Below, piece by piece: positions 26,911-57,851 of a DNA stretch of 64,000 bases. Below the pieces are notes generated by a model that made no database searches, had not been told where the DNA came from, and saw only the letters and a program-made list of their open reading frames with translations. The stretch lies in assembly GCF_000006405.1 (NCBI RefSeq), contig NW_003213889.1, positions 681,127 to 745,126 of the forward strand, written 5' to 3'. Each line of letters starts with the position of its first letter. The stretch's first letter is position 1. A program made the translations under genes and the position numbers. This DNA comes from Perkinsus marinus ATCC 50983. Lineage: Eukaryota > Perkinsozoa > Perkinsida > Perkinsidae.

Positions 26911-27010
26911 NNNNNNNNNNNNNNNNNNNNNNNNNNNNNNNNNNNNNNNNNNNNNNNNNNNNNNNNNNNNNNNNNNNNNNNNNNNNNNNNNNNNNNNNNN
27001 NNNNNNNNNN
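26911..27010. other. assembly gap (100 N)
   Basis: Exactly 100 unknown bases, the usual placeholder for a gap of unknown size. It interrupts the phosphatidylserine synthase gene. Confidence 0.99.
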
Positions 27011-29782: not shown

Positions 29783-32700
29783 TCACTGCTTATCCGAGCT
29801 TTTTTTCTTTGTACTCCGCTTCCGCAGCGATAGAGAAGATGGACTTTTCGGTTTCTTGCCGGTTGGTGACCGTACTGCTGACGTCTGAATGGAATCTTCG
29901 CTAGAGCGGGGGCTAACGGTTACTGTCTCGAATGGCGATAAGAGATCGGGAAAAGGCTCATCGATCTTCTCATGGCTCGACCTTGTAGATGGAGAAAGAT
30001 ATTCACCTGATTCTGTTGTGGTCCTCCCATATCTTCGATCATTGCTCGCGACACTTTCTGGTCTACTAAACACCGATCCTTCTTCTGTTGCGGAGCTGTC
30101 CACCGACGCTCGTGCCGGCCCACTTCCACCCGATATCGGTGGGCTCCAATGTCCTATGGAATCCCGGTCAAACACCTCGGGACTGATACTCCCCATCGAC
30201 ATGTACTCTCCGAGTCCCACTCTTCCTGATTCCTGAGCTTCATCGTTACGAACATACTTGTCGTTAACCAAGTCGCTCAGCCCTGACGAGAGTGTCTCGA
30301 AGACATCGTGCACTCTCCCGCGTTGTAAGGTGCTTGCAGACGACTTAGTACTAGCGCGCGGTTTCGTGATTGACGTTTTGGGAGTCAACTTCCCACGCGG
30401 CGGTAAAGGTGGTGGGATCCCCGTTCGCGTCCTAACCGGGGGCAATAAGTCATATAGATCGGGAATCGACTGCCTCTTCGACAAGGGCCCAGGCCTCTCG
30501 AGCGATCCAAGTCCATCAGTAGGTTCAATCTCCACATAATCTCCATTACTAAGGAACTTCATTTGCATCCTAGGCGGCATGTAGGTAGAGAATTCAGGTG
30601 CTGACGCACGTCTCCCTGCTTCTTCCGCCGACCCTTGAAGGGATTGCAGGCTTTGGGTGGTGCGTTTGACTGGATCAGATCCCAATGGTAGAAGAGCTGT
30701 GTTGTTAAACCCATCAGTCGAGCTCGCTCCGTAGAGTTGATTCATCGCCATATAGTCTCCCTCACTCGACTGTGAGCTGTGCCATGCAATCAAGTCGGTA
30801 TCTGTAATACCATGTAATGCCATTGAGCGCTGAGAGGCATCTTTTTCACCTGGCCCGAGACCCACATGACGACTTATACGAGGCTCGCCTGATTTCTCGA
30901 ACTCAGTAGCAGATGGTCTCTGAGTAGAGAACAACCCATAATGCCGGTGAGACTCGGGGATTGGGAATGACTTACGAGGAACTGTTTCGTGGCCTTTCTT
31001 CTCTTCGCTTTAGTAATCGTCGACAAGGATGCTAGGTACTGAATACAAATGCGATTGACTCGTGATAAAAGACCACATGGTTATAGACTAATATTGACCA
31101 ACGATATCTCCGTGGGCAATATCTAGTGATCCAACTACTATTTTGTCCGTTATACTCACTCGTTCTGCATCATATAGGAATTCCGCTTTAGTTATGCGTC
31201 GCCAGTCGAGCTCATACAAAGAGCCGATAGCAGCCCCCAAAGACTTGCTACAAGCATCGAAACTACTTAGACCTTGAACTGGTATCGGTAACGGCAATAA
31301 TCTAAGCCCATGCAATGACGAAGTGTATCCATAGGCACACGTATAGTAACGCATAGATTCATCCCACCTCGAAGAGTCTAGGCTAACTACGATGTATTGG
31401 CGATCCGATTCTGGCAAGACAGATGATGGTGCAAGTGAGACGTCTCCTTTATACGCTTCTAAAAGCAGTAACTGCCGATGGGTTTGGGAAACAGATCAAC
31501 CTACCTGCTTTATAGAGCGTCCATGAGAAAAATTCTCGTGGTGCACGACATTCCACTTTCAAAGTCTTCCGCAACGTCAGCTTACTCTTTTTATGACCAG
31601 AAGTTGGCTGTCGATTAGTTAACATACGTGCATTTGAAGTCTTATTCTCAGGCCCTACCTGTCCTATCTGTTCTCGCTCTTTATCAGCAACAAAACCGAT
31701 AATCTCCAACGTTTGATGCTGAAAGAGGGCGCTGTATACACTATATACGTCCGGTCGGAAATGTCACAATGTGAAGTCTTTCTAGCGCAAAGTTTACGCA
31801 GTTATCGGTGTTGAACAAACACCTCCTTTCTATGGATCATACGAGTCTTATAATACGATTCTGTGGATTCCATGAGGAGCTTCCCCTTACTTCGAAAGGA
31901 GTTAACACTGGCGCTGGTGATAGTATTGCTGTGTTTATCTGCTGCCTGAGCTCCGCCTTGTACACCTGACAAGCAAATAAGTGAGTCTACTGATGAAGGT
32001 CTGATGTTGCTCCCATGAGCTCTACTCGGATCATTCTCATATCGCAAAACGCACGTGGAAACCAAATCTATAGTGGCATCCCACAATACAAATTTAACTC
32101 GACTGAAACCTAGCGAGAGATATACAGGAGGTTACCCGTTCGAAATCGCCCCTAAGGCTCAACGTAGAGATATCATCCATGCCATAATCTCGTTTATAAG
32201 CTCGATCCACGAAGTAGGCCAGCGAGTCTCTGCAGAAGTCAGACCATAGTTTGTCCTCTCCTAGGGAACTCCTTCTTTTTTTCTCTTCATCCCATAATCG
32301 CCTCACATGGATTCCAAGTTCTCTGAGAGATGAACATGTGATAGCGCGAGGAAAGCAGTCGAGGTTCAGACGATGCGCGAAGTAAGAGCCTTCTAAAGAG
32401 TGCTTATCAAGACCGATCTCTCACAGGAGATCCTCTGTGTTGGTGAACTTCACACTCAAAACACTGCCAAAGTCTTCTTGTGGCAATTCAACATATGCTC
32501 CACCATAATCTGAGCTCCACAGAGACCATCGATCCGTGCATGATCCAGTTCCTATCAATGGCTCACCAGTTCTATCAATATGGGACCACCGAAGAGCATT
32601 CATGGCGTCACTGGCTTCACAGATCCTCACCTGAAAAATAACGGAGATTTCCAGGAACTGCCTCCACGGTGCCGACTGCTATAAACACTATTGGCTCGGA

Positions 32701-35073
32701 AAAAATAATGCCTACCCGTATCGAATTCTTCAGTAAGTTGACCAGAGGCCGATCCTGAAAGCAGAAGAAGATGGTGAGATATCAAATCCTCATCTAACAG
32801 GAGAAGTGGTGCGTCACATTTGGAAGTCAGCCACCGTGTAGCGACCACCATTTGAAATGTGCGACTTCGAGACTTCTCACCTTCAGGTCCTCATCTGTCC
32901 CCGTTCTCTCCCACAGCTCAACCTGCAAGCAAGACTACTCTCGAAAAGATTGGAAGGTGGTGCCGTTTGGTCAGTCCGAGGTCGGCTCACCAGGTTCTTC
33001 TGCGGCACAAAATTGTCTCTCTTCTTATGACTTTTGGCATCGAGAGCTTTACTGATGTACTGAACGCAGAAAGAAGATAAGCATGAGCACAGCCCGTCAA
33101 CAGCCTTACCTTGGCAATGTGCGACTGGACCTCACTCGGTGTGAACATCGGGTATCCAGCAGATCCCATAGAGCCATACAAGGCCCAGAGACCCTGTCTA
33201 AGGGCGTCATCACACGAGGTACTGGATTGGTCAAGTCTAACTGTCAAATACCTAAACATAGGACAAGTCTCTATCATCGCTCGAGGAGGGCTTATGGGCC
33301 GTCCGTAGCTCACGCTTGTCGACTCCTTGATACAGGGTATGTGAAAGTGACGTAAGGTCCGTCGAGAAACTCGGTATCACTACTAGGCGCCAGGAGGGAG
33401 CGACCATGCGGCGGTGCCTCTGAAGGGTAAATATCGTGGAATCGCGATAGTGAAAAGCCAGGCATAAGAGGGCTTATGAAGAATCGTACTTCGGCTCGAC
33501 TCCCATGTGAAGTTCACAGCATCGTGCCAACATTTGAATACATATGGATCTCTTCGCCTCCTCAAGCTGACTTTCGGATATTTGATCTGAATAGCAGTGA
33601 TAAAACTCAAGCAAGTACAAAACGATGCGCATACTGCATGCCATGGGAGAACATACCTGGGCTGACGATCCAATCTCCTCGAGAGTAACCATCTGAAAAC
33701 CAAAATCACACCGAAGTGCATAAATACACTCGTCTCTTAATGCTAGTTCTATCCTATTAATAAACTATGTTCTAATGTTGCTATCACTATTGCCGAGCTC
33801 CAGGAATGATAGGAGGCACCATGAGATTGCAGTGTATGATTACTAGTCATCGACTAGTGTTACAGTTCAAGATAACGAATGACAAGCTCCTGCTAGCAGC
33901 ACAAAACTGGATCAACAACTTGCGCGTGAGAGCTCCACGCTGAGCCTTACCCTAAATGAGTCCTTCTCAGTGTATGAGCTCTTCTTGAACCACTAAGAAA
34001 AGAGCAACAAAATTGGAGGTGTCGCTCAAGTGCAAGAAGCTGAGCCGAAGCAGCAGAACGAGTACCGTGGATCCCAAGAGGCTTACTATGCTGAGATCAT
34101 TAACAAGCTGTGCCCAAGTGACTTTGGGCATCACTCGATCCATCTCAGGTTCATGCTTCAGGCTATAGATTCTCGTCAATGCACGCTTCAGGAGGTCTCC
34201 ACAAAACTTAGCGTCTCGCAACTGTGATTCGATCGTAGGAATATAAACGCCGTACTCTCTGAGTGAGAACGCAAGTATACGAATCTCGCACGTTTGTTCG
34301 GAATGAGCCCAAAAACAAAGAGAGAAGTCTGTATGGTCTTACACTTGTCCGACAACAATCGTAATGACATGTTTCGCCGTTGAATCGAGCAAGAGCCGTG
34401 CGGTTTTGTGGTGGTCCAAGGACTCGAATGATCCTAGAAAGAGTGAATCGCACACCGGTGAGCGCTAATGCACGGAGCAACCTCTATCTCGAATTCTCCA
34501 TCGGATCCTGTTGCGGCCTTCCAACTTGATACTGCACTCTGTGACCTACAGGAGAGGAGTAAAAATGAATATACTGGGGGTCCGCAGCCACCTCAGTTGC
34601 ATCTTTGGCAATCAGTGCGAGTGACTTAATCACCTGAGATCATGAAGGGCTCCGCAACATAGCAAGTCCGAGCAGGTATACTAACGATAGAGATGGAGAA
34701 TGCTCAATCATTCACAGTTCGGCTTCGACTAATGAAAACACATCAATTTATTCGCGAAGTAGGTTCGTCAACACATTAGTGAGTTCAACCCTAACCGAGC
34801 ACTGACCACTACCGGGGACTTCAAATGCTTATCAATGATCAAAGAGCCACTGGCTACGCTCTTCGGTGACTTAAGGGCAGGAGAATCAGGATACCGCATG
34901 CCGGCCGTAGACGGGAAGGGCTGAGAATACACGATAGACCGAGACCATGAGTCGTCAGTACGATGAGAACTTACACCACAGTCCGCTCCCATACAGGGTG
35001 TTGGGGGTCCATTGCGGGCTTGGACTACGAAGAGTATACCAGTCAGGAAACAACCGAGAGAGGGCAGTAACAT
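29783..35073 (-). CDS. module-repeat cluster gene 4: secreted-type modular protein with YMxM/proline-rich tail
   Basis: Starts at 35073 with a signal-peptide-like exon (MLLPSLGCFLTGILFVVQAR). One four-unit super-repeat follows in many short exons. Helical Cys units: LLKRALTRIYSLKHEPEMDR (about 34150), SCDDALRQGLWALYGSMG then FTPSEVQSHIAKV (about 33200), CRDSLAYFVDRAY then DDISTLSLRGDFERV (about 32200), and CSKSLGAAIGSLYELDWRRI (about 31250). Strand-rich units lie between them. The last unit runs through ICIQYLASLSTITKAKRRK and splices in phase (intron with GTAAGT donor, about 30928-30986) into a 370-residue tail. The tail is Ser/Pro-rich with GDYMAMN, GEYMSMG, GDYVEIE and GEYLSPS, an SH3-ligand-like PPPLPPRG, and a basic Lys/Ser end. 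No named family is recognised. Exon edges are approximate. Confidence 0.55.
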
Positions 35074-35666: not shown

Positions 35667-38600
35667 TCAGATAAACAGAATCACTGATAGACCAGTTACC
35701 GATGTATACTTTTTAAGTATCGTCGAACTACGTAGATGAGGAAGATGGTTTCTTACACTGGACTCAGCCTTGTCCTCCTTCCTCGACTCGTTTCCAGCTT
35801 CCTCAATAGACACCAAATACTGAAGGAGGAGAACAATACGAATGGTAGCATGCACACAGATGATAAGCATATAAAATGTACTCCCATCCACTCACGTGCG
35901 ATACATCACGAATAAGCTCAGCCTTCGTGACTGCCTTCATGGCGAACTCTTGATATAAGCTTCTTCCAGCTGCCTCGAGTGCTATCGAACATTTTGTGAG
36001 ATCCGGATATTCCAATCGAGAGATGAGCAGAGGGAGTTTCCTGCAAAGGAGAGCAGAGCCTTCTACTCTCCACCCCAGTAGGAGCGCGAAAGGTTTGCGC
36101 TGTTACAAAGTAATCAAAACGAGAGTTTACAGACGATTCGTCATCTGAGTTTGTGAAGAGGTTCCAGCCGAGTCTCTCAACGCGATATGTGTTCCATCGG
36201 ACGTTCCTTCGTTAAATTAGTCGGGGAGAAAATACTGACCTGCCTAGTCCAATCCTCAGCTCAACGTAGGTTGGTTTCGACCCGTCTGCTTTGCCCTTCA
36301 GTTCTGATAGAGCATGCTCGTGCGTCCATGCTCGTGAGACGATGTTGCGATCACCGCTTACTTGGTTCTTGTACGATCCATTCGAGGCCTCCATCATCAC
36401 CAGGCTTGCAAACCATCAATTTCTTACCCCTCGAAAGAGATAACTGCCCAAGAGCATCCCACTCGACTATACAACAACAGATGTGTCTAACCTTGCCTGA
36501 CGTCTGCTGTTGGACGTCTACGTTGTGTCCAATGACTTCGAGAGTTTCGTGCTGACAGGTGAAGTCATCATTCCAGTTGTTCGAAGGTGGACTCACCACG
36601 AGCAGAACCTTTCGTTTACGGAGTATCGGTACTCCATTTTCCGCCACATCTTTCATTATAGTGTCGCGCATCGCCTAAGGCCGGGGAAATCAAATTTATT
36701 GATGCGTATTAAACTGCAAAACGCACCTTTTCCAAGTCTCCTTTCAAAGCCAGGATGGAGATATCGTCTGGGTGGTAATCCGTGCCGTAGCCGGCTCGTA
36801 CGAAGGTGTCCATCGTATTCATACAAGATAAGTGGCCGTCGACGAGGAGCTCCTCCGAGTTAGCATAGGCAGCGAAAGGACTAATAAGATCGATCACTCG
36901 AGGGCACCTTCGGGTTGAGAAGCTCACGGTATTTCCTTTGAGTCCAAAAAGTCTACGAGTAGTGCAGTGTCACTCTCCCCCGTCTGGAAGTTCACAAAAG
37001 GGCCGGGGAATACTAACAGAAAGCAGTTATGTCTAGAGGAAGATGAACCCGATTCCACTCCATGATCACTATCCCAGATGGCGATGCATAGAGAATCAGT
37101 AATCAGAGAACTAACAGCCAACGTACATTTTAGGGGCTCCAACCGCCAAGCCAAGCTAGTGGAGTCGTCGAAGGCAAAGCACGCTTGGGACTGAGGAGAG
37201 CCGAGCATTCCGCATGTCATTCCGATATCATTATACTCACGAGATTGGAGCCGATTGCTATATCCCACCATGATTTTCCCTGAAGTAGATAGGAGCACTA
37301 GTGTATACAGCAGATATGATTGCAATGTAGGCGCATAAAGAAGAGTTCTGGATCGTTAAGCCCTGTGAACTCCCGAGCTTACTGAATAAATGCCGCCTCC
37401 TCCCTGAAAATGACAGAGTCGAAAAGGGGAAATGACTAGAAGAGGAATCCATGCTTACAAGGTCTCGAATCGGCCGAAAGCTCTTGTTAGCGACAGACTC
37501 CTCAGCCACCTAATAGACCGACGTGTAATCGGATGAGACACCGAATACTATCGGCATACCTCCTTCAATCGAGTTTCCACTTCAATTGGGGTAAAACGAT
37601 TGAATGCATTAGATATCCAAACTCCATCTGATTCGGTCTCCTCATACAGATGCTCGAGGCCCAGCTTCAGGGCATGCTCACATGACTTAGGATGCTCAGG
37701 GACTCGAACAGTGAAATACCTACATCAGCAACCACTCGAACAGTAAAAGACCGTTCCGCAGAAATATAAATTGCAGCCAACAGATCGCCCTCACAATCGG
37801 GCTCGCACCATGCTTACTTATCTTCGTGCTTATCGTTCTTCTTCTTAGCACTGAAAATTAGGCTCACGAATGCTCCTTTGAGTGCAGCAGACGGCGCCGT
37901 GCCAACATACTCTCCCGGAGCTCCTCTCAGGCTTACGATCGACGGCGGCCCTGTGTATTTCACTGAAATATCGAAATGCTCACCAACAGGATGACGCCGG
38001 CTACAGACTATCACAGATGAAGGAATCTCACCCTTATAAGCTTTCCATCGAAATTTAACGTCTCGACTGTAACATGAAAACTCTCTCGGCGTGTTTTTCT
38101 AAAAAGGAAGCAGTTCGCTACATTAACGAAGAGTCGAAGCCAAGTTCGGATAATCCCTCAATCACGAGCTTACCTTGACAACAGCATGGAAACCAATCCA
38201 CTGCAGAGTTCTGAACTAAAGCGAAGAAAGTTGGCGAGCGGAGATGAGTCGGGTACCCACCTCAAATTTCGCATCCTTGAGGCCATCACTGAGGGCTCGC
38301 TGATACTGAATAGAAGAAAGTGAATGAGAGGTATGGATACTCCGTGGGAGGAAGATCACCCAACAGGAATGATGGAATCATCTCAACAGAGGAGGCCCCA
38401 ACGGGATCAGCAAGAGTAGAGCACGTAGAGAACGTTACGTGTTGTAGTCAATGACCATAGAATGCGCTCAGAGTCCTTACCAGCAGGATATCATTCCTAA
38501 GCTGCTTTAGACTGTAGTCTGCGTTCTCGATCCCCTGCTCAACCATGCCGGAATCGCCCGTCCGGAGGGCGAGTTTGGCGTCGTTCATGATAATCAGGCA

Positions 38601-41600
38601 GATGTTTGGTTCATCGTATTCCGTATTCTCGTCCCCTTCCAACAGGGTCTTTATGTAACGGCTCTTCTCCAGAGGCAAATCGACACCGTATTCACTGAGG
38701 AGTATCATCAGAGTGAGGCTTGTATACGTATCGATGGTGGATGCCTACACGCCGTCCACTAAGAAGGTGGCAGTGAACTCAGACTGGGGCCTTTCAATCA
38801 GCACGTTGGGCTTCCAATGGTAGAAACGGATAAAGTCATCTGCCATATTCAAGTGACAGATCCTCACGAGTAAGGAGGATCACCTCTACGCCAAAGACGC
38901 CACCAAAGGGTCTGATCCCCTTCCTCTCGGGCCCGACACTCGAAGACCTGCAATAGAGGATAACGACTAACTGGGTATCTCAGAAGCCTTGCCACCGCGA
39001 AACAAGTGAGAGTTTGAGCGGGATAACGATATCAAACTGATGACCACGACTCACCTCAAATGCTCCGCTAGCTGCGACTAGCAATGACTTCGCCTAAGAC
39101 ACGAAGAACTCTATCATGACAAAGCTTCTCTCAGTGGGATGGAGGACGACACAAGTTCGATGGATCATTTTAAGGCCATCATCCTGGATACTTATGTTTC
39201 CAACAGGCTCGTCCACCGGTAGAGTGTAAGTGAATGGATGAGAGTCTTACGCTCCGCTTAATCTTCGGCCTCTCCCCCTTGCGGAGATCCGCAACTCCCT
39301 TGATAGCCATCAAGTACTGATATAACGAGCAATACACGACAGATGGCACCGGGGAAGAACTAGGTAGCCACTGATGCTCTATCTCCTGGCTTACTCGAGA
39401 TATGTCGGAGACAAGCTCGCTTCTAGTGATGGTGTTTGCGATCGAACCCTTGTACAGGTCCTTCATAGCCGCTTCGAGTGCCGTTGAACAAATTGTGAGA
39501 TCTGGATACTCCGATCGAGAAATGAGAAGAGGGAGTTTCCTGAAGTTAGAAGGAGTCGCCGATGATCCCATCCGGCGAAAAGAAGATCTCGTAGGTTCAC
39601 ATACGAAGCTTCATCAGGGCCTCACAGAGCGCCAGATCCCATAATAGAGATATTGTGAAGGGTGACTCTATTGAAGAGAAAATATGTTTAAAAATGACGG
39701 CGTGGGAGGAAGACATCTGGTGGGTTATCGTACGATAAACAATGTATGGGCGTGAACGACGTAATACTCCGGTGACCACGAGATTCGCGTAGCACTGAGC
39801 GGTAACCTCCCCAGTATGGGCTATGAACCACCATCGCGTAGAAGCTTACTGCTAGTCACGATATTTGCATGTAGTGTTGTGCTAAGTCGTAAGAGTTTAT
39901 TCCCCAGTGATAGCAGATCGCAAATGCAACTATGTTTTTATCGAGTACACCCCAACGAACTAGAGGAGTGCAGATTCCTACTTGTCGGGTTCAATCCTGA
40001 GCTCAATGTAGGTCTTTCTGTCCTTCTCTCTTCTTTTTTTCAGTTCTGAAATTAGAGGACTCCCAGATGATCTTGGAACCACCGCTTACTTGGTTCTTGT
40101 ACGATCCATTCGAGGCCTCCATCATCACCAGGCTTGCAAACCATCAACTTTTTTCTTCTCGAGAGAGATAACTGCCCAAGAGCATCCCACTTGACCATAC
40201 AACAACAGATGTGTCTAACCTTGCCTGACGTCTGCTGTTGGATGTCTGCGTTGTGTCCAATGACTTCGAGAGTTTCGTGCTGACAGGTGAAGTCATCATT
40301 CCAGTTGTTCAAGGGTAGACTCACCACGAGCAGAACCTTTCGTTTACGGAGTATCGGTACTCCATTTTCCGCCACATCATTCATCATAGTGTCGCGCATC
40401 GCCTAAGGCCGGGGAAATCGAATTTATTGATGCGTATTAAACTGCAAAACGCACCTTTTCCAAGTCTCCTCTCAAAGCCAGGATGGAGATATCGTCTGAG
40501 TGGTAATCCGTGCCGTAGCCGGCTCGTACGAAGGTGTTCATCGTATTCATACAAGATAAGTGGCCGTCGACGAGGAGCCCCTTCGAGTTAGCATAGGCAG
40601 CGAAAGGACTAATAAGATCGATCACTCGAGGGCACCTTCAGGTTTGGGAGCTCACGGTATTTCCCTTGAGTCCAAAAAGTCTACGAGTAGTGCAGTGTCG
40701 CTGTCTCCTGTTCGGTCGTTCAAAAAGGGACCGATGAATACTGACAAAGAGCAACTCACGACACGGGAAAACACACTCAATGTACCGTCGAGGGGCTCTA
40801 GCCGCCAAGCGAGCTCCACTGGGTCGTCATGGCTGAGGCACGCCTCAGACTGAAAGCAGCTCAACACGCTACATAATAAGCCCGAACAGCCGTACTTACA
40901 AGATTTGAGTTCAGTGCTACATCCCACATGGGTTTTCCCTAAAAGAAGGGAATCACAAGTATGCACCCCGGGGATAACGAAGGATATGGGCATTTTGAGA
41001 GCAACACTGTAGACCATCAAGTTCCCGCCCTTACCGGGCTGATGCCGCCTCCTCCCTGAAAAAGACAGAGTCGAAAAGCGAAAGTGACTAGAAGAGGAAT
41101 CCATGCTTACAAGGTCTCGAACCGGCCGATAGCTCTTGTTAGCGACAGACTCCTCAGCCACCTAATAGACCGACGTGTAATCGGATGAGACACCGAATAC
41201 TATCGGCATACCTCCTTCAATCGAGTTTCCACTTCAATTGGTGTAAAACGATTGAATGCATTAGATATCCAAACTCCATCTGATTCGGTCTCCTCATACA
41301 GATGCTCGAGGCCCAGCTTCAGGGCATGCTCACATGACTTAGGATGTTCAGGGACTCGAACAGTGAAATACCTATACGAGAAAGAGACAATAGTCTGGCT
41401 CGAACAAAGATGTTCAACTTGACGCATTTCCACCTACTTCTCCTTATACTCTTTATCGTTTATCGACAAGTTATAAATAACACTAATAAAACTGCCTTTG
41501 AGCGAAACAGTGGACTTGTCGCCCGTTGAGTCCGCTAATGCCGCTCGCAGTGCCACCAGCGACTTCGGACCGGTGTACTTTCCTGAAATACCAGGCATTG

Positions 41601-43101
41601 CTAGTGTAGCTTGAGCGGAGGTAACTCACTCAAGTAAGCTTTCCAGCGGAACCTCACGTCTCGGTTGTAGCACGAGAGCTCCCTCGATGTATTCCGCTGA
41701 GGAGAGTGGCGATGGATCACAGTGGGCCGGGCACAGTCTAGTATAAATCGACTCTCTCACCTTGATAACAGCGTGCGAGCCGATCCACTGTAGAGTTCTG
41801 AACTAAGACGAAGAGGGTTAGCAAGACAGATCAGACCGGAAGATACCGACCTCAAACTTCGCATCTTTGTGACCATCACTGAGGGCTCGCTGGTACTGAA
41901 TACGAGAAACGAATGGGAGAAGCTCAAGTAGTTGAGTGGGTATGATTAGCAAAAACGCTGTGATGAGGTGAACAAGGACACAAGTTGGGATACCCGATGA
42001 ATATTAGATGTATTGAGTTTTCAGCGTGTGAGCTGAGCGATGAGACACGTCAGCTCTTGCTGAGTGGAGTAGTAGTTTGCACGCTGGCCTTACCAATATT
42101 ATATCATTCCTCAGCAGTTTCAAGCTGTAGCGATACATCAAGCCCCCATCTCCCAGTTCGATCCTGCCGTTTGGATTCTCCCATAGGGAAGTTATCGAAA
42201 TGCTCATGATGAAAAGGCAAATGTTCGCTTGGTTGTATTCCGTTTCTTCGTCCCCTTCCAACAGGGTCTTTATGTAACGGCTCTTCTCCAGAGGCAAATC
42301 GACACCGTATTCACTGAAGAGTATCATCAAAGTGAGGCTCGTATACGTGTTGATGGTGGATGCCTACACGCCGTCCACTAAGAAGGTGGCAGTGAACTCA
42401 GACTGGGGCCTTTCAATCAGCACGTTGGGCTTCCAATGGTAGAAACGGATAAAGTCATCTGCCATATTCAAGTGACAGATCCTCACGAGTAAGGAGGATC
42501 ACCTCTACGCCAAAGACGCCACCAAAGGGTCTGATCCTCTTCCTCTCGGGCCCGACACTCGAAGACCTGCAATACACCCTCTACCTCATTTCAGAACTTT
42601 TGTGAGGGAGACTACTTACTTTGAATGCTCCTCGGGCGGCTACTGCGAGTGACTTGGCCTAGGAGATAATACATAGTCGATACATTATTGGAGGATTCTC
42701 GAAGCGCACATCGCAAAAATGACAATATAGATGCTTCACACGTCATTTCCAACAGCCAAGGGAATGACAAACAATCATCTACCTACCTGTGGATCATAGA
42801 AGAAATCTGATAGCGTCTTCGCCTCTTTTCTCTGTGGTGCACCGTAGCCGGAGAACACAGCACGCAGAGGTCCTTTATCATTGAGTAACTGAGATCGTAT
42901 GTGCCTCGATACTCGGTGATATTGCTTATAGTGGTTACCAATATGAACTCTCACCTCAACGTCTTTAGCGCCAGCGCTTCTCCAAGCAAAGCAACTACTA
43001 AGAACGGCCATCAGGCAGCTGACGCTTTGGAATAGCATTGCAAGGGAGTGCCTCATGGATATCAGAATAGGGAGTACTGAGGACCGCAGCGGCGGCAGCA
43101 T
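35667..43101 (-). CDS. module-repeat cluster gene 3: signal peptide plus two near-identical four-unit super-repeats
   Basis: Exon 1 (43101-42787; alternative ATG 43056) encodes MRHSLAMLFQSVSCLMAVLS, a signal peptide, and ends FFYDPQ. Units then follow twice in the same order. Linker AKSLAVAARGAFK or AKSLLVAASGAFE; strand unit with WWRLWRRGD and FTATFLVDGV; unit 1 with GVDLPLEKSRYIKTLLEGDE and YSLKQLRNDI; unit 2 with SCEHALKLGLEHLYEETES and FTPIEVETRLKEV; strand unit with LAWRLEP; unit 3 with CMNTMNTFVRAGYGTDY and DDISILALRGDLEKV; and unit 4 with CSTALEAAMKDLY and TRSELVSDISR, running on through YLMAIKGVADLRKG. A short tail ends at 35667. One long gene is preferred because the second super-repeat has no signal-peptide exon and is joined by ordinary introns. 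Function and family are unknown. Confidence 0.55.
35980..38952. repeat. 3-kb direct duplication, copy A
   Basis: Matches 39480-42571 in order and orientation. The best-conserved blocks are 36360-36910, 37380-37720 and 38610-38950, where exons and introns alike are nearly identical. The stretches between them differ much more. Homology stops just after the strand-unit exon ending at about 38952. Confidence 0.85.
39480..42571. repeat. 3-kb direct duplication, copy B
   Basis: Partner of 35980-38952, offset about 3.5-3.7 kb. Blocks 40085-40640, 41030-41370 and 42235-42570 are nearly identical to copy A. Offset changes between blocks show indels in the introns. Confidence 0.85.
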
Positions 43102-43676: not shown

Positions 43677-46600
43677 CTACTGTGCAGAATCAGTGCTGCT
43701 CGTTGTCTTGGATCTTCTCCGGAGGGGCTTAGGAGGTGGCCCCGTCTTCTTTTCACCAGTCAAGTCTACTTGCTCGGGCAATACCTCGACCACGGAGTCA
43801 TCAGAGAGGGGCCCATGATACCGTAAGTAGTCCATGTGCTTGTTGCGAGGAAGTCCAGTAGAACCAATGGAGTATATGAGAGGGCTGAGATCTGGCTGAT
43901 AAGATAGCTCAAGTGGATGGGCCCTAGCCCCGAACGTGCCGGCCTTGCCTTGATACCACTGACATAGGAGAACAGACAATCGACATTAGCCCGATCGTGT
44001 AGGAAAGTTGGACATATAAATCAACGCGAATGAGCTGTCAGTAACCTCACCCCGAATTGCAACTGTGGTCTATGTCCCTTCTCCAATTTCGCAGCTTCCT
44101 GTTTTGCCGTCAGGTACTGAAACAATGGTGATAATGGTTACAAGTGCTCCGCAAGATATGGATCGGAGAAGCTCAAGGAGACCTCTCTCAAGAAGCAGGC
44201 TTACCCTGGATATATCAAAGACCAAGTCGCTCTTCGTGATCATCATGCCGGAGTTAGCATAGAGTAGGTGGACTGCCTCTGCAAGCGCTGTAGAACACAA
44301 CCCGATCTCTCTGGGCTCCTCCTCCTCCTCAGGAATAAATAAAGAAAGTTTCCTGAGGGAGAGTCAGCACGGCTTCTAACTGTCCTGTTCCAAGATGAAA
44401 CAATGACGATAGAGTGATACTCTTCTTACCTGCCATCTCCAATGCTGATCTCAACTTCAGTACCCTTGAGCAAATTCTTGTTTTTTCTCTGACCTTCGAG
44501 GGGAGATTCTAACAAACAATCATTTTCTGCACATATATCAGAGCGGTCTTGTATGAGAATGTCGCATGTTTTACTCACTGTGGAAAGTCCAGTAGAAATC
44601 CGTGGAGTTTCCATCGCAAATGATAGAGCTCGGTCCACGCTTTTTCTTCTTTGTTTTCGTCACATCGGCCTGAACTTCTTTCAGTGTACAAAATACAGGA
44701 GAGGATCTTCCCGACCTCAAGGACAAGTTGCTGTTTCTGTAACTCATCAGCCCTCTCTCCGAGGAACTGGAGCGTCTCATGCTGCCACAACGACGATTAC
44801 GGCAAGGAGTGGTATGAGATGAAGCTTACCACAAGGTTACGTGCCGCAATTTCCAGGGATTTAGCACCGCTCTTTGCTATCTCTCTTACGACGTAGTCGC
44901 GCATAGCCTGAAATGAGTATGTTTCCTTGAGTTCAAGTCGTTCTACTAACCTTTCGCAGATCCCCCTTCAAGCCAAGTATAGATATAGCATCAGCGTTCT
45001 CCTTTCGCGAGTTATACGCGAGTGAGACGAAGGTTTCCATCATAAGCGAGCAAGACAGCTGATCATCATCCTCAGCATAGAGCGGCTTCTTCCAGGCATG
45101 CACTCCAAAAGCCCTGACTATGGAGTATGTCGATGTTGTTGATAGGAAAAACCTTACGGTATTTCATCAGAATCTTCAAAGTTCATAACGATGATAGTGT
45201 CGGATTTCTCACTCTTCTTATTGAATAAAGGCCCCGCAAAATCTGGTGAAGAACAATGGGCAACGGCATAGTTTTCGCAACGAATGAATACTAGATGCCA
45301 GCTTACGAACCACGCACTCACACTTAGGCTCTTCCAGTCGCCACGACAATTTTGCTATGTCGTCGCGGCCAAAACAAACACCAAACTGAGATAGAAAATG
45401 TAGTGAGAGGAATGCTCAACAGCACACTCACAAGCATCGCTCTCTTCGCTATTTCGACAAGAGGTTCACCCTGAAAGACACGAGCCCTAAGGCATCACAC
45501 AGGGGAGCGACCACAGTCCAAAGTAGCAAGAATGAGAGAATCAACTACCGATGACAATTACCAGAGATATTCCGCCTTCTCCCTGAAAGGAAAACAATAT
45601 CAGTGACGGCTTTGATAAGCACATGTACACTTACAAGGTGATTCACAGGCACAAACTTCGTCTCCTTCGCCGAGGCCTCTGCTACCTGAAAGACCACTGT
45701 GCTGTACAACAAAGCGCCTCCCTTGGAGAGACTCAATGGGCGGATACATCATGATGCCGACCTGCTTGAGTCGAGCCTCCACTTCAATAGGCGTGAAACG
45801 CTGAATTGCCTGGAGCTCCAACCCGTCAGGTTTCTCGTACAGCTCTTCCAGACCAATCTTCAACGCCTCCCCGCACGTGGGAGGACTAGCAGACACCTTC
45901 GCAGTGAAGTACCTAGCAAAAGAAGGACGCTTGAATATTGACAGCACTCGCGATAATATACAAGTCTTAAGATCAGTCCATTCTGCGCATCCGCAGATAA
46001 TCAAGTTTCATCACGATATAGAAAAACAGTAGTAAAACAAATTTCACATTTCACAGGCGTAAACGTGATAAACACGTATGGTTTCTCCCACTCACGGTGT
46101 ATAGCGGTGCTTGTAAAATTGTGTCAACGAAAATTCCGGATAATTTTCCAATTAAAGACATACACATCGAAACGTTTTACCGTGAGTAGAAGTCTGTGTT
46201 TCACTAGTGTTTTCCATATTGAGAGTGCAACTCCTGCATATTCAAATAGTTGTCGTCGGGAAACAGTACAAATAAACAATAGAGCAAAAGATTCGAGCAC
46301 CAGTGCAAGTAAAAAATGGTGCAGCACGTACTTGTTCTCATATTTAGAGCCCTTCTTCTTGAGAGGATATATGAGGCTGATGAAGGTCCCCTTTGATCCT
46401 CTTGAGGTACGCGACTCGTTCGGGGCACCTTCGGTGGATTTCCAATTGACTAATGATTTCGGTCCTGTGTACTTCCCTGAAGTTAAAGACTAGATAGAGC
46501 AGCATCCCAGCTGAAATTGACTCACCTCGATACACTCTCCAACGGAATGCTACATCCAGGCTAGAGCATGATAATTCTCTGTCGGTGTCTTTCTACAAGA

Positions 46601-48493
46601 AACAGACCCCTATGCGAACACCATCACAGCCATGTAATGATTATACCGCGCTCAAGATGCAACGAACCACATACACGAAGCTGCTGAGCGGAGGGTCACT
46701 TTTTGATGGTACAACAACATAACGGCGATTCTCACCTCAACCGTCGCTTCTCGACCTAGCCTCTCGAGATCTTTGAACTGAGACACCGAGAAAACCTTCA
46801 CATCACTTCAGCACCTCCCACTTAGCCCTCCTTATCAATGGTTATATGTATAGAGGAGGGCATCTAATATGTATTATATCTAATGAACTAGTAGTATTTA
46901 TAATAACCATATCTATATGGTTATTATAATATCAACTATATTTAATTATCAAGATACACGATAATAACATGTAATCACTATATTAATAGCTCCAGTAGTA
47001 GATATTATTCCAAATAACTAGTAATGTAATAATAGGATATATAGATTAACAATGATACCAGGAACACTTACCTGGAAGGTAGCGTCTTCTTTCCTAGCCT
47101 TGATAGCTCGTTCGAACTGAGAGCACACGGAAAAAATGTGAGGCAATGCGATCTCCAGCCGAAACCTTCACAAAGGTCCTCGAATTGGAACGAATCTCAC
47201 CAGAACAATATCACTCCTAAGTTGCTTCAGCGTATATGTATCCTGTCCTGCCCTTCTTCGTGATGCCGGTTCGAATTCCTTCCTCAGAGTAGATTGCCCA
47301 GCCTTCAGTATAGTCCCACAGACGTCCTTCTGTTCAGCTCGAGTTCCCTCCCTTTCGAGCTTTAGAAGGTCTTTCAGTGATGCCTGCGGTTCCGCATCCA
47401 AGTCGACGCCGTACTCCCTACCACAGCAAGCTGCTCTCTCTATTTTCCCACATGTACTCACAGTCCGTCGACTAGGAATGCCACAGTGAGCTCAGCGTCG
47501 GGCTTACTCCGCAGGACCAAAGGTTGATTACCGTTGTGGAAGGAATAGAAGTCACCTGTAGATGCAATCGGAAAAATCTGCAATCGACGAGGAGAGCCTA
47601 CCTCTATGCCAAAGTCGCCAATATAGGGTCTGCCCTGCATCGTTCTTAGCCCTACACTCTGAAGCCTGATGAACGAAGCTAGTCAAAACCGGGGCAACGG
47701 CTTTCATAGAAAACGTCAGAATGCTCACCCCGAACGCGTCTTCAGCAGCTTCTCCCAGGGACTTCGCCTGAACGGAGCAAGACACTGGAGGTATCGAAAA
47801 TGCCATAAGCTGACCATCCAAGCGTAGCAGCAACAGAGTAATGTCGATACTGCTAGTTCCCTCCAAGCCTACCTGTATGTCTGGAAGCAGGACTCCATCA
47901 CTCACCACTGGAGTGCTTCCATGTTCACCCCTTGTCTGCCCGCTGTCCCCGGATTCATTATTCAACAATCGATCTCTGTCCGACGTCCTCTTCTTCGACT
48001 ACAATTAATCAACATCAATAACCTCGCTATTGAAAACTGCTCATCCTCTACACTTACTTTGAACAGTCTTCCAAAGCAACTACCTCCAAAACACCCACGC
48101 CCTATTGAGACAGCACTAACCGTCGTCACTATCAAGCTTACTACACTTATACGCATTGGTAAAACTGAGTAAAGGCAAATCGAGAACCCAAGCAAGGCCG
48201 GTCGAGTCGCCATTGAATAACAAACACGGTGGAGGTATGTGTTTTTATCATGAAGATGTGCACATCAACAACGGGTGCCATAACAGTGGTACAAAATTTC
48301 AACGTGAGCATACAGCATGAGTCCACGAGAAAGACTACAGACAGTGCGGAAAGGTCAACGTACGAACCAAGTCGAAAGTATAAAGTCAATTTAACGAGGC
48401 GACTTGGGGGGTCCATGCCCGGAGGCTAGCGGCGACGTCGGAAGAAACCGAAAAGGCGATGCTGAAAAAAATGACACTTGTGGCGAACTCCAT
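43677..48493 (-). CDS. module-repeat cluster gene 2: signal peptide, one super-repeat, proline-rich tail
   Basis: ATG at 48493 opens MEFATSVIFFSIAFSVSSDV, a clear signal peptide. The linker AKSLGEAAEDAFG (about 47750) and strand segments LYWRLWHRG and ELTVAFLVDGL come next. Then unit 1 (GVDLDAEPQASLKDLLKLER, VCGTILKAGQSTL, YTLKQLRSDIVL), unit 2 (TCGEALKIGLEELYEKPDG, FTPIEVEARLKQV), unit 3 (LSCSLMMETFVSLAYNSRKE, ISILGLKGDLRK), and unit 4 (CSTALAEAVHLLYANSG, TKSDLVFDISR, then YLTAKQEAAKLEKG). The unit order is the same as in genes 3 and 4. The final exon, joined by a phase-true intron, gives WYQGKAGTFGARAHPLELSY, MDYLRYHGP and TGPPPKPLRRRSK, and stops at 43677. The tail recalls that of gene 4: tyrosine, proline-rich and basic. 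Family unknown; exon edges approximate. Confidence 0.58.
46840..47060. other. AT-rich intron-like segment in cluster gene 2
   Basis: A run of TATTA/TAATA-rich sequence, much more AT-rich than its surroundings, between two exons of gene 2. It may be a decayed repeat; no coding content. Confidence 0.45.
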
Positions 48494-48505
48494 TTCGATA
48501 GCGTT

Positions 48506-51500
48506 CTAATCATCAAGGTAGCCTAGATCATATTTCTGCATTTTCTGCTACCACTCCAACTCACCTTAGGTCGCAAGTCATTCTCGAACGCTTTCAAAGT
48601 GATCTCTGAGAGAGCCTTCCCCGAGCCGTATTTAACTTCTACGGCTCTCGCTAATGAGGTTCGGCAAATGGTCGCGACAACGTCGTCGTGTTTTTGACCA
48701 CCAAAATCCTCCGGCGTGATTGTAAACGACAACCTCACTCTAAAAAAGGGAACAACTCGAGGGATCTTCAACTGCAGGTATTCAATGCAAACTGCTGAGG
48801 TCAACAAGACTGTGAATACTTTCCGTTCGAGATCATGTGTGCTTTCATAGGCTCTGACAGCGGTCCAAAAGTACTGCCTGAGAGCCCAACATTGAGTAAT
48901 GTCAGTACACATTGTGATCGAAGAGAAAAAATACTATCTTACCATCACTTGGCCAGCTCCAAGATATTTCAGAACCGTATCCCTTCAGTGAGCACATCCA
49001 AGCAGATAGCGGTTCTCCACTACGAATCGTAGACTGTCAACCGACAAGTAGCGAATCAATGTTAGGAGGACCTCACTCTCGTGCGACGAGGCGTCAGGCC
49101 CTGGACCGCCTCATCCAGTGTCATCTGCTTGGGTGAACTTTTCCCCTTCGGAGGTGTTGACAACATGACAGGTCTCTCCAGGTCACTAGCAGTGATTGTA
49201 ATAAAGCCAGAGACACTCGAGGTAGCTCCTTACGTTAGAGAGCTCGTTCTCTCGAGGAAGTCCTTCAGCTTTCTCCTCTGCTTTTCTGACCGCTCGCTCG
49301 CCTGACACAAACCTATACATTGTAGTGCTGGGACAAGAACACGACTCACCCGTTTCACACGAGTGTCGAAATCCAAATCACTTTCGATGCACGCAGACGA
49401 TCTATGCAGCCACTGAAGCGAGCAAAGATCATGTCGAGGCCCGGAAGCTACTGCAGTGGCCGTGTGCACTCATCTTACTGGGAAACTCAAGGAAAGCGGT
49501 GGCTCGACTTGCGCTGCCTTCTTATTCTTCTTGGACTTCTTCTTCTTGGATTCCAAGTGCGGTAGTGCTTCATTCAAGTACTGGCAAAAAAACGAATACA
49601 CGAAGGATCGTCCAGACTTCGACCCTACTCGTTCCATGTCGTACACCATCTCGTAGGGCGTCATGATATCCATACTGACCTCCGTATCACTGTCATAGAG
49701 TATATTGAAAGCTTCATGTAGAGCCTCCGCGCACGGAAGTGCTCCTCCCGCCCCGGCACCGCCCATCTCAATGAGGACCGGTATCGCCCTGCAATCATAA
49801 GAACTACGACCGTGAGAATTTAAGCAGGAGATCCAACGCCAAGAGTTCAGCTACCAGCTCAGTTCAGGATTCTCAACAATTGCTCCAAAAATGTACAAAA
49901 AATACGAAGAAAATTAGGGAGGGAACTACGATCCTCTCCTTTCTGGTAAGCAAGGGAAAACAAAAACTGTTTACTTTTTCCAAAAGGTGAATACAACAGC
50001 GTGATATTCTTTGATGTCGTCCGCATTCAGATTCCCCGAAAGAGGCAACACAGGGCCCTTATACTGGCCTGCCACAGAAAGCAACAGCTGCTATTCAGGT
50101 CGAAGGGGGCATCCAAATTCTGCCTTTATCATAGCTTTCCCACTCGAACTCGTGAACACCTCTCAAACTGCATGTCCGCCGTAGGATGAGGTCACCAGAC
50201 TTCTCTGACTTCTTGGAAGTCTGAGATCAGAGAGTAAGATGATAACGCACAAGGCAGCCCTCACCCGTCGCCCAGATTTCTTCACATTTATTTCAACAGT
50301 CGCATCCCGTACATCTCCTAGAGTAATATGCTGAATGGAGAAGGCACGATCAACAGTATTATTAGTGCAACAGTTCTACACTAATTCTCAAATCTTCTGT
50401 GAAGATCAACCCGGCGAAGCCTTCACGCTGAAATAACATACTCTTTACACACATCCCAAGACTGAATAGGAGCCCACCCGTCGGATGTCCCCAGCCAATG
50501 CAGTGAGAGAGAGCTCATCCGACACGTAGTCCGAGCCGTATGTGCTACTGACAGCATACTCCATAGCGGCCTTGCAGTTGAGCCCAACTGGCGAGATAAT
50601 CTGCTTCGGCTCGCCTATGAAAACTCCGAGTACCCTGATGATAGGAGATATAATCGCTGAGGAAAACACGCGTACAAGCACTCACTTGAAGTCACTGTTA
50701 CTGATGTATTCAAGCTCCAACATATACTTAGCCTCGGGTGGGCCAAATATGACCTTGTTCTTAAGTGTTGCCTTGCCAACTGAAAAAAGGGTACCATTTC
50801 ACCACTGAGCACATACTAGATCGCTACTTACCAGAAGACAGTAAACTCATGTGGATAGTATAGAGACCGTCCGCTCCTCGACAACCAAGCGTCTGCACAG
50901 TATAGAGTCAATATTCATATCGCCAGGACACTTTTCTCACTTCAACTGGAGGCGTAGCCTGCGTTATCTCAATGAGAGAGGAGGGCATCTGACCAACACA
51001 AAAAGGGACAAGTTTGGAGGCCAATCCCACTAGATATGCTTACCGTCGCAGCACTTCTCTCTGCATTCTGTTTCTAAGAACCAAAACGAGAAATGAGTTT
51101 ATGACTCAACGAAGTTACATTGAAGAGTTTGAGCGTTCAGACTTACCCTAAACTGTTCGAGCAACTTGATCCGCTTTGATTTTGCAGTCTTCGACGCCAG
51201 CTTGGCCATCTAACGCAGAAGTGAGATGAGTCCTTCAGACCATCGAGCACACCCACTTCTGTGAAAGCTTCCTCCAGCTCAATGGGTGACAATTGTGACC
51301 GCTGGTTGCTGAAAGCAGCAGCGTAGCCGATACCCTCTAGGCCTGCCTGGAAGATATTAGAACAGGTAGGCGGGGATATTCCTGAGGCGACTGTGATAGG
51401 GAAGTACCTGAGGCACCAAGGTAATTTCAAGTAACTAACGCATAGCAATTGTGAAGGAGTTGAAGAACCTACCAATCCTTGTATATGAAACACATCGTGC

Positions 51501-54500
51501 CAGCCGGCCCCCAAGCCGACTGCCTCTTGTTGGCGCACTCAACTGAGAGGAAAAGGTCAGAACTGAGTAAATGACGATGACGCTGTTGGGAGGTGATACT
51601 CATAATGTTGCTTCTTACCTCCACTTAACGACCACATAAGATCAAATCCCGGTACGTGACAAATTTGGCCATCCCAGCAAGCTCCTGAAATTGACAAGTA
51701 TGAGGGTTCATTAATGACTGTGAGGAATTGAATACATCTCAAAACGACAAGCGATACAAAAGTGATATTGTGTCACCGGTGAGATAGCCTTGTTGGCGAT
51801 AGTTGACAAGTTGTAGGCCTGAGGAACAAAAGTAGGCTCTTTGGCCGTGGGAGCATGTGCCTTACCTCGAATATGGTGCGGTCACTAATATTAACCTTTG
51901 CTCTCATTCCATCACGTCGGGCGAACTAAAATGGCATGCTGCGGAGTTCGTAGTGCGGATAGAGAAGCGCACCTCCCAGCAGAATACCTACCATGATTAT
52001 ATCACTTCTTAGATCATCGTAGCTGATCTTCGAGTAGTCGTCGGGATCATATAAATCAGAAAGCCCCTCTTGTAGAGCTGTTGAGCATACACTTCGTTCG
52101 CTGGAGAATCGGTCAGTGCCCAAACGCCATGGGCCATCACTAGCAGATCCCAACGCCAAGGCTCTGTCAAGCCTCAATGGTATTCTCACGCTGTATGGCC
52201 TGAAGCAGTGCATCAACGGTGCGCCAGTCCTTGTTCCCTTTTCCTCACCGGTCGTTAACGCGAAAGATTACTTGCCACTTTTCCTCGCTGATCGCATTGA
52301 AAGTGGTAGGAGTGTCATATAAATGCGATGGTGGTTCCTTGGCTAACAGCATCATCACATATCATGCACTCAACTCCACTATGTCCCTTACGCCAAGCAC
52401 GAATCGTCCAATTCACGCTCCTCTGGCCCTGCCCAGACGAGTCCATCACGTAGCACTCAGTGACCTGAACGAACAGCTCTGAGACATAGACAGACGAGTA
52501 GGCTCACTTGGAGAGCCTTCTCAGCCAAGTAGCCTAGGGAGTATACCTGAGGCGAATACTCCTCCTGCCAAATGGCAAACCATAGAGTATGTTACCTTCA
52601 CCGGCTCAGGACTGCTACCAGCCGCGCTCTCTGTGGAGGCGCGTTGTCGGAGCAATTGGTTGATTCGGTTGTCAACGTCGTCTAGCTCATCTTTATTCAC
52701 TTGATAGTATTGTTTATTCTTTCTCTAAAATAAACAATATCGCAGCTACTCAGAGTTTACAAGCAGATAGGAGCAATAGCGATGCCCCCCAAGGAGCCTT
52801 ACCCATCTCAGCGGGACCAAACAGTCGAAACACGAGCTCTGGTGGGAAAAGGAGGCCGATACAAGGCAGAGGAGTATGAAGATTCGGCGAACCATATTAG
52901 ATCAATCGATAAAGGGATGCAACACAGACGGCGATGCGGAGGCAACTCGACGACTCAAAGTAGCAGACAGGAACACCAAACATGGGAGCTACATATGCAT
53001 ACAGTGGGGCGTTAGGGTCTGGATGAAGAGGGCTATTAAATAGCAGTAAACCTTGCATGATTCAACTGAGGGAAAAACAATGAGATATGACTCATATCCG
53101 TCGTTCGTAGATATTCAAAAAAATGGCAACAAGCCGCTGGGTTGAACCCAGTAGAACGAGAGCTCGTCAGTCAACTCGGAGGGTGTATGTCGTACCAAAA
53201 TTATCAGTTCGCCCTGGTCTTTTGTCCTATCGATCGTTTCTATCTCCCGTAACCTCATCAAAGCATCAAACGCACTTTGGAAACAGCCAGCAGTTTGAGT
53301 ACGACTCGACAGAGGGACGACTACTTCTTTTGACCTGAACAGTCTGCCTACTCACGACTGAGTCTCCCCAGTGCTTAACGATCTTCATCTAGCGGTTGCT
53401 GTGGTGAACACCAACCATCGTTTGACTCACAAGAAGGGTTTTGCAGCGGCAAAGACTGCTGTTACTGGTTTGAGGTTGAGCTTATTCTCATTGTTGAACT
53501 GCTTAGGTATCACCTTTGTGAACTTACCTAAGTCACCAGAGACCACAGTTCGCCCAAGAGGAGTTACTCACCTGCTTCGAACACTTTCCACTTCAGTGTC
53601 ACTGGGACGTAGAGCCCATTTTGTTTGGTCTCAAAGTCGAGATGACATAGCCTCTCGTGAGCGTGCGCCTGTTGACCAGTGATACATAACCATTTAGTAT
53701 TGACGACCAACTTTCAGCAGTTTTTTCCGAAACACGTCCATCAGGATTTTATCGCCGTTTCTAACGTCCGTCCCAGTTTCAAGTTTCAGCCATACTTTGG
53801 CGGCATCGAGGAGTACATCGCATTTTGGTAGGTTGTTGAGTGAAGGCACTGAGACAGCGTCTTGATGTATGCTGAGGAAGAGAAGTTCCGGCTGGCGTGG
53901 TATGCGTCCGAAGCTTACAACTGGTCAGCACTCATAACAACTACGATCATATTCCCAAGTTTCGGGAAATGGCGATTTAATATAAGCCCAGGATAGTCAC
54001 CTAGATAGGCGCATTGATAGTAGTTGTCGAGCGAAATACGCCCACTCATTCTGAAGACGCGCCAGCTGAGCAGAGGTTCCTCGTCTGAAGTCGAATCGGG
54101 AGAATCGCACTGATAGGAAGGTTCATGAGGAGCTTTTCTCGAGTGAGGCTCCGACAAGATTGCATTCCGAGCGATATAGGCTAGAGTCGGGATCTGGAAG
54201 AGTAAATCATCACTCGCCGCAGACTGTGACCAACCTTAGGCTTCGAAATATCTTGTAGGGATGCAGTAGTAATGTTCGAGAGTAGTGAAAACAAGAACCA
54301 CAGCAGGCGGGAGCGTCTTATGATAGGATGGACCGTCATAGTAAGTTAACATTTTCGAGTTAACATTCCCCCCCCCCACTATTGTTTAACATAACTTGTA
54401 TCATTTACTCGAGACAGCAATGGTATCCTGCTCTTCACACCATGCACGTACCACATAATTATAATTCCAACTCTTTATGAGGGCCTGACGATGCTCGCAG

Positions 54501-55431
54501 GCTCCATGACGGTTGAGCCTGTACTGCAGGTGGCCGCGTTCGGCATGTTACTAGATGGCCTTCTAGCATTTAGATGGAGTCTCGGGACACACTCTGGTCG
54601 CTTGGGGAGGTCAGCCGAGAGCCTCACTCTGTCTGGGAAGAGCGGTGGGGTTGATACTATCGTAGGATCAGGCAGGTCATCCGCGACACAATGAGCTGGA
54701 CGAACGGCCTATAGAGAGCTGACGATGAGGAATGTCAGCCGCGGAAGACGAAGGGGCTGTAAGTTCAGCCTGGAACTTTGCAATAGCCATGCATACCGAC
54801 TTGAAAGTACAAAGTATTACCGAGTTAGGCCTCTAACAACTAGATAACAATGTTATCTCTATGCTGCGCGAGACGAGCAAGCAATCCGGAGGATTTCAGT
54901 TTACCTCAGAGTCCTTTAGAGAAATTTCTTCGATGCAGCTCTTTCCCCCGTCTATGGTAAACTTATCATCATTCCGTATTCGGCTTGCAACAGGTTCCAC
55001 ATACCCCGACGAGGCGTTCTAAGAAAATTTATGACAAACGTATCTCATCAAAAAAGGATTCCGACCCGATCTAACTGCAGTTTGTGTATATAGCCGTCAT
55101 AAGCTCGCTTCACCTTGGCCAACAGCTTACCATATGCTTCGTCCTGTACAATAATCGCCTCCCACAGATCGGAGTATACCTTCAACTTCGCCGCACCTAC
55201 AGCAAATCTCCAAGCGCCACAGCTTATCTCTATACCCATAGACAGGTCCACTGTTAGCTGGCGTGAGCGTCTAAGAGCACTTGGTTGACGAGGATGGACA
55301 GGTGCTGCTACAGACGACGTAGTACGATGATGAGGTGGTCCGGGCCTCGTTTGCCCAGGGATATTGCTGGCTTCTCGTAAAACTCTAGTTTGAGCGGTAT
55401 GTGGCCTATAGGAGCATTCGTTCTCGCACAA
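48506..55431 (-). CDS. module-repeat cluster gene 1: long modular protein, 5' end unresolved
   Basis: At least eight Cys units are visible: ISCGAWRFAVGAAKLKVY (about 55200), PKCDVLLDAAKVWLKLETG (about 53820), GCFQSAFDALMRLREIET (about 53250), CSTALQEGLSDLYDPDDY (about 52080), TCSNIFQAGLEGIGYAAA (about 51350), NCKAAMEYAVSSTYGSDY (about 50560), CAEALHEAFNILYDSDTE (about 49720) and CRTSLARAVEVKYGSGKA (about 48650). Strand-rich units between them include LSWRVFRMSGR, VTLKWKVFEA and VNWTIRAWRKG. The middle four units are in the super-repeat order of the other genes. The C-terminus is either DLRPK plus an intron and KYDLGYLDD with stop at 48506, or a stop at 48523. The first exon could lie at 55.4-56.0 kb, where two frames look hydrophobic, but I could not choose a start. 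Function unknown. Confidence 0.5.
54368..54377. repeat. C10 homopolymer
   Basis: Ten consecutive C bases in non-exon sequence of gene 1. It is a likely site of length error or polymorphism. Confidence 0.95.
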
Positions 55432-57841: not shown

Positions 57842-57851
57842 ATAAAGCACT

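Follow-up and report, generated by a model that had tools for sequence, protein, structure and literature searches.

The 64,000-nucleotide stretch of Perkinsus marinus ATCC 50983 analysed here (the window; contig NW_003213889.1 of assembly GCF_000006405.1, positions 681,127 to 745,126 of the forward strand) carries on its minus strand, between positions 52895 and 29783, an array of four intact gene models, designated B, C, D/E, and F. Their predicted products contain 4, 4, 8, and 4 copies, respectively, of a compact module of ~110–145 residues. The array sits among ordinary genes, and the contig ends ~10–11 kb past it, at the end of the window. An initial annotation of this region had described genes on the minus strand in which strand-rich exons alternate with helical ones and four unit types keep a fixed order, and both descriptions agree with the models. 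Its unit counts of four, eight, and four stand for the last three genes (C, D/E, and F). Its first gene, starting at 55431 and credited with roughly eight or more units, cannot be kept as a single gene: it merges a TSNAXIP1-like fragment, a doubtful small gene A, and gene B, which itself has 4 modules. The word giant was also too strong, as the predicted proteins are 709–1296 residues long.

The minus strand was read in three frames from 57.7 to 30.85 kb, and exons were stitched by a script using frame-compatible GT or GC donors and AG acceptors near seeds picked by eye; the last exon of gene F was taken from the open reading frame. The script was blind to intron phase, but its choice was restricted to frame-compatible sites around the eye-picked seeds. 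The resulting models on the minus strand were B (52895–49470, 23 exons, 709 residues), C (48156–43677, 24 exons, 762 residues), D/E (43056–35667, 45 exons, 1296 residues), and F (35073–29783, 24 exons, 1053 residues). Their parts are listed below; all lines rest on the gene models, those for first exons also on a hydropathy scan, and any further source is named in the line.

52803..52895, minus: gene B exon 1, signal-peptide-like (MVRRIFILLCLVSASFS...)
51992..52724, minus: gene B module type 1, 5 exons
51257..51925, minus: gene B module type 2, out of phase at an uncertain a2-b junction (also phase tally)
50478..51209, minus: gene B module type 3, 6 exons
49629..50427, minus: gene B module type 4, one GC-AG intron
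49470..49580, minus: gene B C-terminal exon, Lys-rich
48058..48156, minus: gene C exon 1, signal-peptide-like
47201..47998, minus: gene C module type 1
45762..47116, minus: gene C module type 2
44951..45685, minus: gene C module type 3
44205..44907, minus: gene C module type 4
43677..44116, minus: gene C C-terminal exons
42955..43056, minus: gene D/E exon 1, signal-peptide-like
42094..42888, minus: gene D/E module D1
41212..41895, minus: gene D/E module D2
40455..41161, minus: gene D/E module D3
39395..40402, minus: gene D/E module D4
39251..39316, minus: gene D/E linker exon between the two four-module halves
38481..39183, minus: gene D/E module E1, first short exon uncertain
37560..38305, minus: gene D/E module E2
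36727..37509, minus: gene D/E module E3
35896..36674, minus: gene D/E module E4
35667..35819, minus: gene D/E C-terminal exon, end uncertain
34975..35073, minus: gene F exon 1, signal-peptide-like
34087..34920, minus: gene F module type 1
33110..33992, minus: gene F module type 2
32136..33059, minus: gene F module type 3
31160..31965, minus: gene F module type 4
29783..31038, minus: gene F C-terminal exons, long Ser/Pro-rich tail, no Pfam match above cut-off (also open frame and Pfam)

The frames are open across all 116 exons of the four models, and the same exon set recurs in the five four-module halves (B, C, D, E, and F). With a single GC-AG exception, the 112 introns are GT-AG (111 of 112); their median length is 56.5 nt and their range 31–442 nt. 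Introns of P. marinus are given in PMC3101222 as canonical GT/AG, 39–1622 bp long and mostly below 100 bp, so the two shortest introns of our models (31 and 36 nt) lie under the range stated there. We regard the gene and module architecture as modelled as close to certain.

Each module is encoded by five exons, or by six in type 3, which carries an additional micro-exon of 21–42 nt. In order, these are a linker (a1), a short exon that appears helix-like by eye (a2), a strand-like exon with a C...W motif (b), another strand-like exon (c), and exon d, which begins strand-like and continues into a Cys helix and then a second helix. Intron phases are 0, 0, 1, and 2 within the module and 0 at its end, the same in 19 of the 20 modules; the exception is B2, whose a2-b junction came out in phase 1 and is not trusted. 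Because modules end in phase 0 and only whole modules hold the full set of parts, whole modules would be duplicable in frame.

The initial annotation had seen one Cys per helical unit only, whereas the module proved to have two conserved Cys, in exons b and d. Across the 20 modules (3067 residues), exon b accounts for 21 of the 46 Cys and exon d for 20; the other five are two in a2 and two in c of B2 and one in a1 of E1. One Cys in b and one in d is the pattern of 18 modules; E1 has a third, in its doubtful exon, and B2 has seven. The two conserved Cys of each module probably form one disulfide. A fold prediction for the 49-residue type-4 helical exon of gene C, made with the 20 d exons as alignment, placed helices at 14–31 and 40–48 (mean predicted local distance difference test score 79.4, predicted template modelling score 0.52), with Cys19 in the first of them. 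Beyond this exon, we infer a module fold of helix, strand with C...W, strand, strand, Cys helix, and helix.

The four module types run in the same order in B, C, D, E, and F, and a cross-type comparison points to their being one family: when each module except B2 was scored with a profile built from the types other than its own, 15 of the 19 exceeded all scored shuffles of 200, D1 and E3 only narrowly. Module B2, compared with a profile of the 19 others, was equalled by 1 of 391 scored shuffles. In a tree built from the 20 modules, each of types 1, 2, and 3 came out as one group (support 54/36, 94/92, and 100/99), and the type labels required 3 changes, the minimum, against a mean of 11.6 for shuffled labels, none of 200 being as low. 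Modules B2, B4, and B1 are long branches on this tree. As modules mostly group by type across genes, the four types and their order are most likely older than the gene duplications. The fixed order also suggests that each type has its own interface.

The two halves of gene D/E are separated by a linker exon, and no second signal-peptide-like start was seen by eye over the 157 nt that lead from the linker to exon a2 of E1; D/E thus looks like a fusion of two four-module sets. Near-identical tracts between the halves span exons and introns alike (1b–1c, 2d–3a1, and 3d–4b), while in the diverged tracts identity is 56–89% for exons and 48–81% for introns, and introns at tract edges are 91–93% identical. 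Patchy gene conversion acting between old duplicates would account for this mosaic. Together with the gene models and the type tree, the comparison of D with E supports the expansion by tandem duplication that had been proposed initially.

In the diverged exons of D and E (near-identical tracts and 1a1 excluded), the pooled nonsynonymous and synonymous divergences (dN and dS) were 0.29 and 1.18, values by which these exons are judged to be protein-coding and under purifying selection; general diversifying selection in D/E finds no support in the same figures. Exon 4c (D 39982–40045 and E 36240–36303, minus strand) is the sole diverged exon with dN above a finite dS (0.51 versus 0.48), and dS is saturated for exons 2b and 2c. 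Inside the near-identical tracts there are 12 nonsynonymous and 2 synonymous differences without exon 4b, or 13.5 and 6.5 with it, too few to judge. The other nine pairs of halves have proportions of synonymous differences (pS) of 0.75–0.82, at or near saturation, and of nonsynonymous differences (pN) of 0.37–0.56.

Inspection by eye showed a signal-peptide-like first exon in each of B, C, D, and F, as well as in gene A; three had been noted initially, and all four models in fact start so. The hydropathy scan of B, C, D/E, and F likewise found a hydrophobic first exon ahead of module 1. Among the four best windows of each of these proteins, no 19-residue window outside the first exon exceeded 1.26, and no C-terminal hydrophobic signal for a glycosylphosphatidylinositol (GPI) anchor appeared among those of B, C, and F; D/E has one C-terminal window, at 1278 (1.16), but its end is uncertain. 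From the signal-peptide-like exons and the paired Cys it follows with high probability that the array proteins enter the secretory route. Of the earlier suggestion of a secreted or surface system, the secreted half is therefore retained, and the surface half finds no membrane stretch to rest on.

The family had been called unrecognized, and it remained so against Pfam, NCBIfam, PDB sequences, and a protein database; the profile search that the initial annotation had proposed was run and gave no clear match of the unit to a known domain family. In Pfam, which we take to include the FAINT model, proteins B, C, and F at E ≤ 1 (best 0.02) and the 19 modules without B2 at E ≤ 5 (best 0.0054) stayed below cut-off throughout. 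The five four-module halves had no significant match in NCBIfam, and three profiles found nothing significant among PDB sequences (best E 0.14, 0.041, and 0.39). Neither gene C nor a five-sequence alignment significantly matched the protein database, each search scoring only the ~8000 candidates that shared most words. A viral origin was also considered and dropped: 65 stretches in viral contigs matched a pattern, and none was confirmed as a relative.

Within the genome, no copies beyond this locus came up when the proteins of genes A, B, C, D, and F served as queries; these searches are insensitive, the C and D queries having missed B and F exons of the same window, and distant copies could escape. 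The sole off-locus match, a 36-residue stretch on contig C197, belongs with the TSNAXIP1-like part. The FLVDG pattern occurs at 51 places in the genome versus 36 in the control, and a profile scan of 30 kb of contig C233, where three such places lie close together, and of the 20 kb left of the window detected no module (best E 0.53). The Perkinsus 22-nt spliced leader ACCGTAGCCATCTTGGCTCAAG, given for P. marinus in PMC3101222 and PMC9399869, matches the genome exactly 34 times when its first base is left off (21 of 22 bases), the reversed control 0 times. For the neighbouring gene resembling elongation factor 3 (EF3), no database match exceeded 47% identity among the 120 of 990 listed, which suggests that the database lacks near relatives of this organism; the absence of homologues therefore says nothing about other Perkinsus species, and whether the family is lineage-specific cannot be told.

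Apicomplexan parasites are described in PMC4413850 as having tandem arrays of secreted or surface proteins kept alike by duplication and conversion. In the light of such arrays, of the secretory signals, and of the fixed module order, our preferred reading, to which we give slightly less than an even chance, is that the array, of at least four intact genes, encodes soluble extracellular binding proteins of a Perkinsus-like parasite that act on host or prey molecules. The extracellular binding role taken separately is possible rather than probable, and that binding takes place at the parasite-host interface is what we infer. An ancestral single domain would have given rise to the four types, and the four-type protein would then have been duplicated in tandem and once fused head-to-tail into the eight-domain D/E. 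Domains being exon sets bounded by phase-0 introns, they could be copied whole and in frame; host or prey molecules would be bound via several different domain faces, and variety would be maintained by duplication and patchy gene conversion. It may be, although we hold this tentatively, that the module, found so far at one locus of one perkinsid-like genome, is a previously undescribed secreted one-disulfide domain existing as an obligate set of four non-interchangeable, ordered subtypes, with the array serving as a diversification engine for a parasite-specific family in extracellular recognition or adhesion. In a literature search over titles and abstract openings, mostly with Perkinsus among the terms, none of the papers listed (15 of 32 and 6 of 14 in the two shortened lists) describes such a family. 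If the reading is true, Perkinsus-like parasites gain a new family of secreted multi-domain proteins whose module is clear and whose disulfide and export route can both be tested, as well as a clean example of a gene family built from phase-matched exon cassettes and reshaped by patchy gene conversion.

Two groups of alveolate parasite proteins invite comparison, both as far as PMC4413850 describes them. The Theileria SVSP and SfiI-subtelomeric families, with FAINT domains, are predicted to be secreted and are repeated, SVSP in tandem arrays (PMC4413850), and the array shares with SVSP/FAINT proteins this character of a predicted secreted, repeated family; FAINT is described as low-complexity and Gln/Pro-rich (PMC4413850), and the Pfam scans above gave no FAINT match here. 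Toxoplasma SRS and Eimeria SAG genes have in common with the array their tandem arrangement, signal peptide, Cys-paired domains, and gene conversion, which is named there as a probable means of keeping array members alike (PMC4413850). Unlike the array modules with their two conserved Cys, however, SRS/SAG domains tend to have six Cys, together with GPI anchor sites (PMC4413850), and no GPI-like hydrophobic tail was seen in B, C, or F.

Several results weigh against the binding-protein reading or the architecture beneath it. Modules B2 and E1 hold junctions that are not trusted, and four of the 19 modules (E1, F2, F3, and D3) fail the cross-type test. On the tree, type 4 is not a single group, needing two changes with B4 straying, type 1 is weakly supported (54/36), and B2 is a long, doubtful row. 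The candidate modules of gene A do not stand out from shuffles (of those scored, 22 of 410 and 24 of 477 were as high), and the pooled dN/dS of ~0.25 in the diverged D/E exons belongs on this side as well.

Among the alternatives, the one that survives best, although still unlikely, is that these are secreted structural proteins of a wall or matrix (e.g. of the zoosporangium or resting cell) with modules as building blocks. Repeated modules, linkers that are basic by eye, and a soluble secreted layout lacking a membrane stretch in the hydropathy scan would all suit such a role, but a fixed series of four distinct types, each conserved from gene to gene, is more in keeping with specific interfaces than with a bulk polymer, and the only tandem repeat that a repeat finder listed inside the array is a 15-base repeat in the Lys-rich tail of gene B. 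Multi-domain protease inhibitors, or a polyprotein cleaved at basic linkers into single-module products, would also explain the multi-domain secreted layout, the two conserved Cys per module, and the Lys/Arg-rich linkers of several genes. We consider this improbable: no Pfam match to an inhibitor family rose above cut-off, independent inhibitors need no fixed order of four types, and the basic linker sites are not conserved in position by eye.

Since a signal peptide and probable disulfides indicate entry into the endoplasmic reticulum only, the proteins might instead stay in the lumen of the secretory route or in apical organelles, with a housekeeping role and no export to the host. Tandem expansion with gene conversion is, as general knowledge has it, less usual for such proteins, and the halves, in the nine pairs other than D/E, are far diverged in protein sequence (pN as above), which makes this doubtful. 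It is likewise of low probability that the module is a very diverged known fold, such as an immunoglobulin-like sheet with a helical hairpin. Antibody light chains rank first, third, and fourth of the six PDB matches listed for the 19-module profile (E 0.041, 0.37, and 0.64), their alignments cover C...W and in two of three a YSLTI-like strand, and in immunoglobulin-like domains, too, the strand after the Cys holds a Trp. These E-values are not significant, however, antibody chains are generally known to be heavily represented in PDB, and the module differs in its extra helices and in a second Cys that lies in a predicted helix rather than in strand F; we treat the match as a lead only. Finally, an artefact of eye-picked seeds, with frames not spliced together or genes decayed as gene A and the solitary module described below might suggest from their damaged or unusual look, is very unlikely: intron phases recur, the frames stay open through 116 exons, dS clearly exceeds dN in the diverged exons of D/E, and five four-module halves share one exon set.

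Two further features lie at the edges of the array and between its genes.

53115..54339, minus: small gene A, signal-peptide-like exon plus two candidate modules (intron phases, profile scan)
48565..49121, minus: solitary extra module, of uncertain splicing, between genes B and C (profile scan)

In gene A, the b-c and c-d intron phases fit, being 1 and 2 in both candidate modules, and one junction requires a weak GC donor. We treat it as a small, separate, doubtful gene whose modules are candidates only. The solitary module scored 15.1 bits with the profile versus at most 3.3 in 448 scored shuffles and may be a remnant or a fifth module of gene B. Upstream of gene A, Pfam TSNAXIP1_N matches at ~55.07–55.19 kb, in the open frame 55051–55482 with 26.9 bits (E 6.5e-6), narrowly missing the cut-off of 27, and in the stitched stretch with 28.5 bits (E 2.1e-6), above it. 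Judged from sequence, this TSNAXIP1-like part is a different gene from the array. Contig C197 carries, near 261.2 kb, a 29-residue stretch with 59% identity to the TSNAXIP1_N-like exon at 55066–55270 (minus strand).

Between the array and the EF3-like gene, positions 56160–56508 hold a minisatellite with a 52-base unit (6.7 copies, 96% matches). The EF3-like gene itself, right of the array, is a 1026-residue open frame at 57849–60926 on the plus strand (HEAT_EF3_GNC1 5.2e-32, ABC_tran 2.5e-42). No Rfam match at gathering threshold was found anywhere in the window. On the other side of the array, a run of 100 N (an assembly gap) occupies 26911–27010, outside the array, and 19186–21762 (minus strand) holds a stop-to-stop open frame of 859 residues that has a hydrophobic segment close to its beginning and matched nothing in Pfam at E ≤ 0.01. 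Four tandem copies of one gene lie at 3971–10635 (plus strand), where single exons match glutathione S-transferase: GST_N_2 (1.9e-6) at 4118–4384 and GST_C_3 (0.0017, under its cut-off) at 10127–10486.

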